64,000 bases of DNA, from contig JAGBWK010000017.1 in assembly GCA_017629835.1 (NCBI GenBank), forward strand, positions 1-64,000, in the 5' to 3' direction. The stretch's first letter is position 1. Each line of letters starts with the position of its first letter. The stretch is from Muribaculaceae bacterium. GTDB lineage: Bacteria; Bacteroidota; Bacteroidia; Bacteroidales; Muribaculaceae. This document shows, piece by piece, positions 36,789 through 39,635 of this stretch. Position numbers and translations under genes: made by a program. The notes beneath the pieces were generated by a model, which saw nothing but the letters and a program-made list of their open reading frames with translations, ran no database searches and had not been told where the DNA came from.

Positions 36789-37508
36789 TTAGTTTTGTTT
36801 AGTGCGAATGAGCACGTCGTCAATCATACCATATTCTTTGGCTTCTTCGGCAATCATCCAGTAGTCGCGGTCGGAGTCATGCTCTACCTTTTCGTATGGC
36901 TGACCTGAATGGTCGGCGATGATGTTGTAGAGTTCTTTCTTGAGTTTCTGAATTTCACGAGCAGTAATTTCGATATCGGACGCTTGACCCTGAGCGCCAC
37001 CCATTGGCTGATGAATCATCACGCGTGAATGTTTTAGCGCAAAGCGTTTGCCTTTGGCGCCTGCAACGAGCAGCACTGCCGCCATTGAAGCAGCCATACC
37101 GGTGCATATTGTTGATACGTCGCTTGAGATGTATTGCATTGTGTCGTATATGCCAAGGCCAGCATAAACCGAGCCACCGGGTGAGTTGATGTAGATTGAT
37201 ACATCTTTACCGGGGTCAGAGTTGGCAAGGTAGAGCAACTGCGCTTGAATCACGTTGGCTGTGTAGTCGTTAACATCAGTGCCGAGGAAGATGATGCGGT
37301 CCATCATCAAGCGTGAGAACACGTCCATTTGAGCTACGTTGAGTTGGCGCTCTTCGATGATAGTCGGAGAGATGTAGCTTGACGTGATGTTAGGGGTTGA
37401 AACGAGAGTTGACGAAGCTGTTGAATTGGTTGCCGACATGTATTGGTCGAGTGCAAGGCCATTCATTCCAAGGTGCTTCACTGCGTAATTTCTGAAATCT
37501 TTGCTCAT
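36789..37508 (-). CDS. clpP: ATP-dependent Clp protease proteolytic subunit
   Basis: A 239-residue serine protease that assembles into a double heptameric barrel. Catalytic S141 in GMAASM, H166 in MIHQPMGG and the Asp in the HDSDRD stretch (about 211-215) are present. The N-terminal 40 residues, rich in Ser and Thr, are longer than in enterobacteria and may be a propeptide. It is transcribed from a well-formed promoter (37582-37612) and is followed by clpX. Upstream lies an unusual 762-bp gap before tig. Confidence 0.97.
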
Positions 37509-37612: not shown

Positions 37613-37740
37613 ATTTATTTTCTTCTTTCGCTACAAAAAATTTATTTTTCGTTTTTTTTTCGATGCAGGCAACAATGTCTGGCTGTAGGGGATGATAGGT
37701 AGCTAAAGCTGACAATAACTTGTCTTATGAATAGGCGTTG

Positions 37741-38086
37741 TTGAGAATTCTCACGGTTTCTCAGTTAATTCTCAATTGCTATTACGTTGGTTAACTGTGC
37801 ATTAAGTGGATTTTCTCATTTTCTCACTGGTGTTAGGATAATAGATGGTTAATATAGGTATAATTATGTTCTTAATACGCTATATATCAATAATATATAT
37901 AATAAATAATATATTATACAATATAAATATATATATCCTATATATTAGATTATTTACAAAGATTGATATTTGCTTTAGATGTTTACTGTTAAGAGGTGCG
38001 TGAGAATTTGAGAAAAACGAGTTAAAGTACTGTTGTATAGTGATATAGGCGATGAGAATAAACTGAGAAAGTGTGAGAATTCTCAC
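37741..38086. repeat. Dyad-symmetric array of twelve TTCTCA/TGAGAA motifs around an A/T-rich core
   Basis: The left arm (37741-37827) and right arm (38000-38086) are inverted copies of one motif layout: a palindrome GAGAATTCTCAC at each outer end, then TTTCTCAGTT, ATTCTCA, a 36-bp spacer, and TTTTCTCAnnTTCTCAC. Hexamers begin at 37742 (reverse), 37748, 37758, 37769, 37813, 37821 and, mirrored, at 38080, 38074, 38064, 38053, 38009 and 38001. Steps of 10, 11, 44 and 8 bp are identical in the two arms. The 36-bp spacers have the same length but unrelated sequence. The 172-bp centre is very A/T-rich, especially 37880-37950. It contains no credible gene. Likely a site for a multimeric DNA-binding protein; identity unknown. 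Confidence 0.8.
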
Positions 38087-38176
38087 GTAATAGATTTGTG
38101 TGGATTATCAGAATGAATAAGGGCGCTGCTCTGCAACGCAGGCTATCAGGGTAGACTAAATTTTTATGGAGGCATA

Positions 38177-38218
38177 AATAGCGAAGCCTCCGAACCGATG
38201 TTCAGAGGCCTCGTTATT
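38177..38218 (-). terminator. Second hairpin after tig
   Basis: AATAGCGAAGCCTC (38177-38190) pairs with GAGGCCTCGTTATT (38205-38218), a 14-bp stem allowing wobble pairs, with a 14-nt loop. Probably the main terminator of tig. Confidence 0.65.
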
Positions 38219-38224
38219 GAGTTG

Positions 38225-38258
38225 CTTAGGGTTTATGCTCTTGCAGAGCAGCCCTAAG
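38225..38258 (-). terminator. First hairpin after tig
   Basis: CTTAGGG (38225-38231) pairs with CCCTAAG (38252-38258), with an inner GCTC/GAGC stem. It starts 12 bp after the tig stop codon. Confidence 0.55.
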
Positions 38259-38270
38259 GTTGGAATGTTA

Positions 38271-39635
38271 TTATTTCTGAGCTTCTTCAGCTACTTTTTT
38301 GAAATCTTCGAGCGACACGGGCTTGATTTCGATGTTAGCCATATTTTTGATAGCGTTGAAGAGTTTGCGGTCGCCAACTTCTTCGATGATGCGTGAGCGA
38401 GAGTTGCGGTCAGAGAGTATGCGGTCAGCATAGCCACCTACAGTTTCATCGTCGAGGTTGTACATGCCAAATTGAGCGAGCTGTTGAGCAGCGATGCTCT
38501 TAGCGTAATTCTTAACATCTTCTTCTTCAATCTTGAAGCCAGCTTGTTCTGCGATGCGTTCTTTGATGAGTTGCCATTTGATTGAAGGAATCATCTTTTC
38601 GAATTCTGCATCGATGTTTTCAGCAGTCAATTCTTCGTTGCGAGCAACGAGCCATTTTTTGAGGAATGTTGCAGGGAGTTCGAAATTGCCGAATTTTTCG
38701 ATGAGTTCTTTTTCAGTAGTGATTTGGAAGAGGTTTTCGCTGTTGGGTGCGAGTTGTGAAGCAACCATACTTTTCACGTTGTTGTGATATTCCTCTTCGG
38801 TAGTTACTTTGTCCTTGCCGAACACTTCATCGTAGAATTCCTGACCATATTCAGCGAGGCGGTTAACGATGATTTCAGCGATAGAGAGTTCGAAATCGCT
38901 CTTAACTTCAGCTGCAACCTCTTTGTCGATGTTGAGCATAGAAGCGAGTTCTGAAGCGTTGCCTTCGCATGAGTTCCATGGGTTGAATACCACTTTGTCG
39001 CCTACTTTTTTGCCTGCAAACTTAGCTTCTTCATCTTTAGCTTTGAAGAGGAATGGAGCTACGATGCCTGAAGCAACTTGGATTGCATCTTCAGCAGTGT
39101 TGACAGTGCCGTCTTCGTTGAGTTGCATCAAAGAGCCTTTCACGAGTGCACGTTCTTCGTATTCTTCGCCTGCTTGCTGTGAGCCGAAGCGTTCGCGGAG
39201 CATTTTGTCCTGCTGGTCGTGCATTTCTTGGCTAACTTCAATGGGGTAGTAGGGGAGAGTAGTAGTCTTGTCGAGAGTGATGTTGAGCTCAGGTGCTACA
39301 CCGATTTCATATTCGAAAGTGTAGTCCTTCATTTCGAGCGAAATTTCCTTAACTTCAACTGGAAGTGGCTCGCCAAGAACGTTGAGTTTGTTTTCTTGAA
39401 TGTAGTTAACTACTGCGTTGTAAACTTCGTTGTTGAGCACATCGCTTTTAACTTGTTTGCCAAAAAGGCGAGTGAGCTGGCCGAGGCTAACGTGTCCTTT
39501 ACGGAAGCCGGGGATGTTGTGTGTGCGGCCGATTTCGCGTAGTTGTTTTTCGATTTTTCCTTGATAGTCGTTTTCTACAACATTAACGATGATTTTGGCG
39601 CTGCCATCATCGAATTTTTCGAGCGTTACGTTCAT
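38271..39635 (-). CDS. tig: Trigger factor
   Basis: A 454-residue ribosome-associated folding chaperone. The N-terminal ribosome-binding domain includes the signature IPGFRKGHVSLGQL near 38-52 (the loop contacting protein L23). Residues 150-240 correspond to the PPIase region, which here lacks clear FKBP active-site features, as in other Bacteroidetes homologues, and the C-terminal substrate-cradle domain follows. It lies upstream of clpP and clpX as in many bacteria, but separated by 762 bp. Its own promoter and a structured leader of about 135 nt lie upstream. Confidence 0.93.
   Translation of the reverse strand: MNVTLEKFDDGSAKIIVNVVENDYQGKIEKQLREIGRTHNIPGFRKGHVSLGQLTRLFGKQVKSDVLNNEVYNAVVNYIQENKLNVLGEPLPVEVKEISLEMKDYTFEYEIGVAPELNITLDKTTTLPYYPIEVSQEMHDQQDKMLRERFGSQQAGEEYEERALVKGSLMQLNEDGTVNTAEDAIQVASGIVAPFLFKAKDEEAKFAGKKVGDKVVFNPWNSCEGNASELASMLNIDKEVAAEVKSDFELSIAEIIVNRLAEYGQEFYDEVFGKDKVTTEEEYHNNVKSMVASQLAPNSENLFQITTEKELIEKFGNFELPATFLKKWLVARNEELTAENIDAEFEKMIPSIKWQLIKERIAEQAGFKIEEEDVKNYAKSIAAQQLAQFGMYNLDDETVGGYADRILSDRNSRSRIIEEVGDRKLFNAIKNMANIEIKPVSLEDFKKVAEEAQK

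Follow-up and report, generated by a model that had tools for sequence, protein, structure and literature searches.

A dispersed hexamer dyad in a Muribaculaceae genome as a probable gene-less copy of a DUF3987-type replication origin

Introduction

The origins of SaPI/PICI elements consist of short iteron sets around an A/T-rich stretch, and they are bound by a phage-like initiator helicase. Another known arrangement is that of REP/RAYT, in which many dispersed short elements go together with one solitary gene that is flanked by a copy.

Initiator-helicase activity has been confirmed for Rep of the SaPI/PICI type (PMC7145576; PMC5862659). In PLE, a satellite of Vibrio cholerae, changes in the DNA-binding domain of RepA go along with changes in the iterons of the origin, and the module has been swapped, possibly under nuclease pressure; PLE origins are restructured under the phage nuclease Odn (PMC8263062). 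Infecting lambda is blocked when a plasmid carries its origin iterons with oop transcription (PMC3349717). A role as replicative helicase in mobile elements has been predicted for DUF3987 (PMC5862659), which is the replication gene of PICMI satellites and also occurs in phages (PMC10803314). Both papers treat it as a predicted helicase or primase marker, and its binding site is not named there.

The locus described here lies in a window of 64,000 nucleotides (the whole stretch of DNA that was analysed) from a Muribaculaceae bacterium, whose genome comprises 83 contigs (74% complete, about 1.79 Mb). It resembles the SaPI/PICI origins in having iterons that flank an A/T-rich stretch, but the ATPase family is another one (DUF3987 instead of the DUF927-type Rep), the hexamer differs, and most copies are gene-less. 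Among published cases in which iterons covary with the DNA-binding domain of their initiator, PLE comes nearest, although its RepA is a RepA_N protein without helicase and its iterons are semi-palindromes of about 30 bp. PICMI satellites have the DUF3987 replication gene in common with our case; iterons are not mentioned in PMC10803314, and neither integrase nor alpA is found beside the DUF3987 gene or the arrays of the window genome. REP/RAYT may be likened to the family for its dispersed copies and solitary gene, but here the element is a long dyad array and the gene encodes a helicase, not a Y1 transposase. We consider the window element to be, with good probability, an orphan copy of the iteron-type origin of a DUF3987-type mobile replicon. 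The mechanism would be of a known kind, while the origin class and its gene-less dispersal on a chromosome look new in the literature searched.

The hexamer dyad between tig and clpP

The genes clpP (36789-37508, minus strand) and tig (38271-39635, minus strand) bound a 762-bp gap, in which the putative initiator-binding array occupies positions 37742-38085. The gap holds 12 TTCTCA/TGAGAA hexamers, against at most three in any of 2000 dinucleotide-preserving shuffles, and elsewhere in the window TTCTCA occurs at chance level. The hexamers start at 37742, 37748, 37758, 37769, 37813 and 37821 in the left arm (37742-37827, minus strand, with the 37742 hexamer reversed; arm profile match E=3e-20), and at 38001, 38009, 38053, 38064, 38074 and 38080 in the right arm (38000-38085, plus strand, with the 38080 hexamer reversed; E=3e-18). 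The first-pass annotation had described twelve hexamers in two inverted arms 172 nt apart with the same steps in both, and this was confirmed: the arms, measured as 86 nt each, are 73% complementary, the steps are 10, 11, 44 and 8 bp, and 6/6 mirrored hexamer pairs share exactly one axis. Each outer end forms the palindrome TGAGAATTCTCA (37742-37753 and 38074-38085), and each inner end a doublet with the 8-bp step (TTCTCATTTTCTCA, 37813-37826, minus strand; TGAGAATTTGAGAA, 38001-38014, plus strand).

The centre (37827-38000) is indeed very A/T-rich, at 79% against 66-67% in the arms, and is, by analogy, a candidate unwinding element. Comparison of the full copies of the element described below revealed an asymmetric conserved block, TTGCTTTAGATGTTTACTG (37970-37988, plus strand), inside the right half; it is kept in three of the four full copies and is weaker in the fourth. 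The earlier statement that the segments inside the arms have no shared sequence did not hold, since the spacers of the two window arms are 53% identical, whereas random 30-mers from the tig-clpP gap average 29%, and TAA/TA positions in the spacers are invariant or nearly so in 13/13 arms of the family.

Comparison of the window element with Rfam gave no match to a known RNA family. A chromosomal oriC acted on by DnaA was considered and rejected: the near-DnaA box reported earlier is present at 38099, but it stands alone and has changed in the nearest paralogue (TGTGGATTA vs TGCAGATTA), and the GC-skew check suggested for an origin found no oriC-like minimum at the dyad. The centromere-type site that the first-pass annotation had also offered gains no support, and the array motif differs from parS, a ParB-type 16-bp palindrome near oriC. 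Downstream of tig, a 12-bp perfect inverted repeat, GCTGCTCTGCAA, is located at 38125-38136 and 38241-38252, and a strong terminator-like stem (38182-38213) lies between its two halves.

Copies of the array in the genome

The whole-genome search for the layout, as proposed in the first-pass annotation, was carried out with an arm profile over the contigs of the genome itself and of 40 relatives. It detected exactly 13 arms in the own genome, each at E<=2e-15, at nine intergenic loci. Four of these are full dyads (C57, which is the window copy, C8, C58 and C30:52563-52910), two are arms cut by contig ends (C80 and C45), and three are single arms (C7, C19 and C30:49472). The other copies are 70-77% identical to the window copy. 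No gap is needed to align the 13 arms over about 85 bp. The hexamers stand at columns 7, 15, 59, 70 and 80 of this alignment, and mean pairwise identity is 90% in hexamer columns and 50% in spacer columns. Between C57 and C8, 3/60 hexamer positions differ against 35/98 spacer positions (p=5e-6). Indels among the copies are found in the A/T centre and none in the arms. The proposal of selection on a protein-DNA architecture is thus supported, since the spacers have diverged among 13 dispersed arms that all retain the layout and the hexamers.

All copies are placed between housekeeping genes: clpP/tig, valS/recJ, sprA, an antiporter gene, glnA, glyA with a SIMPL-type gene, groES/rubrerythrin, and rpe/DedA. 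With the same element beside at least eight unrelated gene sets, the idea of an operator for clpP or tig finds no support. The stretches of about 25-30 bp on each side of the window dyad (37715-37741 and 38087-38110) share homology with the sequence that flanks the C8 copy, which makes the duplicated unit larger than the array.

In the 40 relatives, the arm profile gave only one weak partial match (E=9e-4), and DNA similarity to the element was found neither in 60 relatives nor in phages or plasmids. Genomes of the same genus had no DNA match to the array; no tig gene turned up there within 1.5 kb of clpP, and neither tig-clpP nor valS-recJ are neighbours, these gene orders not being conserved. 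Matches of the pattern TTTTCTCANNTTCTCA in relatives are mostly within genes or microsatellite-like tracts. One genome of the same family (G012; L026, L035, L038, L040) has intergenic low-complexity TTCTCA tracts with TTTGTCAATTTG repeats, which are microsatellite-like and unlike the dyad in layout.

The DUF3987 gene of the genome

A single DUF3987 (PF13148) gene was detected in the 74% complete genome, at C30:53043-54425. Between valS and a recJ-like gene it has a full dyad as its only company, and the outer hexamer of this dyad ends 134 bp before its start codon. A rough estimate, with nine windows of some 600 bp each placed in 1.79 Mb, puts the probability of such proximity to any of the nine loci by chance at about 0.3%. 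The window copy is gene-less, with tig and clpP as its flanks; the probable reader of the array is a protein encoded next to one copy only. The inverted hexamer arms around an A/T-rich centre that mark the DUF3987-type layout are present in the window element. The suggestion of an initiator-type nucleoprotein site gains support from the helicase gene adjoining the C30 copy and from phage DUF3987 genes with similar arrays.

The protein encoded at C30 is predicted to be a mobile-element replicative helicase and has a helix-turn-helix at its C-terminal end. Its predicted recognition helix, SQATVYRR, resembles SKATAYRH, SQATAYRH and SQATLYRH of three helicases that belong to another ATPase family and are encoded by phages with TGAGAA arrays. 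We infer that this protein binds the window copy, and it may also be able to open or fire it. Its best identity to any relative found is 37%; no relative was detected in viral contigs, the best phage record reaching 33% and the best plasmid 32%, and no virus or plasmid with both this protein and TGAGAA arrays was found.

Arrays and DUF3987 genes in phages

A 24-letter pattern of one arm, with the long step allowed to vary from 42 to 71 bp, was searched in viral contigs. Nine records matched, and in seven of them the array adjoins a gene of the replicative-helicase type. This gene encodes DUF3987 in L051, L052 and L053 (the gene end of the last was identified as L242), DnaB-N with AAA_25 in L050 and L055, and AAA_25 in L054. 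In L056 the array adjoins the gene of an uncharacterised P-loop ATPase, and in L057 no helicase gene was seen nearby. An excisionase-like HTH frame follows two of the phage arrays.

Relatives of the L051 protein provided 24 phage loci, in which the origin-like region 3' of the DUF3987 gene was compared. Layout and scaffold are constant among them, and the hexamer switches as a set between TGAGAA, TGCAAA and GAACTT. The left-arm steps are 9, 11, 44 and 8 in TGAGAA and TGCAAA phages, as compared with 10, 11, 44 and 8 in the window, with the agreement at 44 bp partly built in by the search pattern; the word at the 8-bp step is frequently one mismatch off in the phages. The spacers of the window family are no more similar to those of the phage origins than expected by chance. 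A common mid-arm motif (CACTAT...ATCA) of window and phage arms was tried and dropped after failing the shuffle test (p 0.03-0.40 over seven origins).

In the phage proteins, residues 433 and 436 hold all information on the hexamer class (1.49/1.49 bits): K/[HF] goes with TGAGAA, R/V with TGCAAA, and [VA]/K with GAACTT. The AlphaFold model of the full-length DUF3987 protein is poor (pLDDT 43), and the C-terminal domain model was used alone; it is a predicted winged-helix domain (mean pLDDT 83) with both residues on its putative recognition helix. When it was compared with the PDB, winged-helix domains including that of MCM8 came near the top, none significantly. A tree of the first 395 codons, the helicase part, requires seven class changes without clustering by class, which argues that array and C-terminal domain are exchanged together. 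Since the two are neighbours, linkage could account for part of the covariation. Against this, the scaffold on which the hexamers switch is homologous, and the same residues recur in diverged domains. Near-identical phages (L219-L242) exchange all origin hexamers at once along with the C-terminal domain. Three loci (L227, L229 and L230) have a helix of the TGCAAA type but a different array.

Possible origin and roles of the gene-less copies

In the mechanism that we propose, the DUF3987 protein, which is predicted to be a replicative helicase that forms hexamers and ends in a winged-helix domain, would bind the TGAGAA/TTCTCA words, and the steps of 8-11 bp would set adjacent words on roughly one face of the helix. 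The inverted arms would then orient two initiator/helicase assemblies toward the A/T-rich centre, where melting could allow helicase loading and bidirectional replication. This reading draws on architecture, copy family, constraint, gene adjacency and helix-hexamer covariation in phage relatives, all of them established by comparison of sequences. Most likely, though with low certainty, the gene-less copies are non-autonomous derivatives: with the replicon they either spread or stayed behind, and the protein would bind them in trans.

Readings as transposon, operator, attP or oriC are ranked below that of an orphan DUF3987-type origin. The first-pass annotation had named a non-autonomous transposon (MITE) as an alternative, in which the arms would be long terminal repeats with transposase subsites for an unseen autonomous mover. 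The expected dispersal is real (13 arms at nine loci, all intergenic), homology drops sharply outside the outer hexamers, and two copies lie at contig ends. We nevertheless find this unlikely, since target-site duplications are seen by eye at no full copy, no link to a transposase was found, and the gene adjoining the C30 copy is for a replicative helicase. In addition, the nearest pair, C57 and C8, has common flank for about 30 bp past the palindromes at 63% identity, unlike fixed transposon ends, arms are solitary at three loci, and the spacers differ by 50% without indel while the hexamers persist. Constrained hexamers with helical spacing at purely intergenic sites would equally suit a dispersed operator, on which a transcription factor binds the arrays and the neighbours form a regulon. 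This appears more doubtful still: the neighbour genes have no common theme, copies are found both downstream and upstream of genes, promoter signal in the window element does not exceed that of shuffles, and in phages the array type is tied to replication genes. Tandem 10-bp sites around an A/T-rich core presumably resemble the P' arms of lambda, and together with the excisionase-like frame after two phage arrays they might suggest attP-like arm-type sites of a tyrosine recombinase. However, the conserved neighbour is a helicase and no integrase, and the hexamer class tracks the recognition helix of the helicase, so that we hold this to be very improbable.

Chromosomal origin copies could also serve the host as decoys: by titration they would draw off the initiator of an incoming phage or satellite, whose replication would then be blocked. 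Such a role would explain the preserved hexamers between diverged spacers in C57 and C8. It has a precedent in the plasmid-borne lambda origin iterons that, with oop transcription, block infecting lambda (PMC3349717), and repeated hexamer switching in the phage family is as expected for attacked origins, as with PLE origins and the Odn nuclease (PMC8263062). The constraint could, however, predate insertion and date from the time as live origins, a phage with the same protein was not found for this host, and four dyads are few for titration; we therefore give this role a small chance. That a trait of these origins drives decoy action or nuclease evasion is speculation.

DUF3987 is widespread in phages, satellites and mobile elements of Bacteroidales. 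With a candidate DNA-binding domain, the hexamers and two specificity residues named, the initiator, the origin and the recognition code become directly testable. We report here that near-identical phages switch the hexamers of a whole array, and that a host chromosome carries probable orphan origins; this raises the question of whether chromosomes have latent or decoy origins for mobile elements.

Related arrays in other elements

A second DUF3987 subfamily occurs in Muribaculaceae islands, a Bacteroides plasmid and a faecal phage, with its array located between DUF3987 and a DUF6371-type gene. Its recognition helices and hexamers are paired as SER[TS]VM with CTGCAA, TDRTVM with CTGAAA, SRR[TA]VYY with GTGCAA, and CESAVKK with GTGTAA. 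DUF3987, array and DUF6371-type gene are likely to form a replication module in general use among the mobile elements of Bacteroidales. In the Muribaculaceae islands L114-L122, iteron arrays of differing hexamers lie between the two genes.

At least 15 TGAGAA arms of another sequence type, dispersed and well conserved, are present in SZAS-10, a proteobacterial MAG. DUF3987 was not found in this MAG; a degenerate arm lies about 100 bp upstream of one of its AAA_25 RepA-like genes, whose product has a helix-turn-helix at the C-terminal end. Thus, a solitary helicase with dispersed arms occurs twice. It is possible, though we lean against it, that orphan origins are a new dispersed chromosomal class, in which one lone helicase gene sits with its origin and numerous further copies consist of the origin alone, and that this class arose at least twice, with DUF3987 in Muribaculaceae and with the AAA_25 RepA-like helicase in the proteobacterium. 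Such elements would act either as self-spreading non-autonomous origins or as host decoys that drive the hexamer switching of the phages. The SZAS-10 arms (L058-L072, L202-L218) have an inner GATGCCATCGGCATC block, and several are preceded by GGTATCCTATTACC, which is also present 3' of the arm beside the AAA_25 gene in L180.
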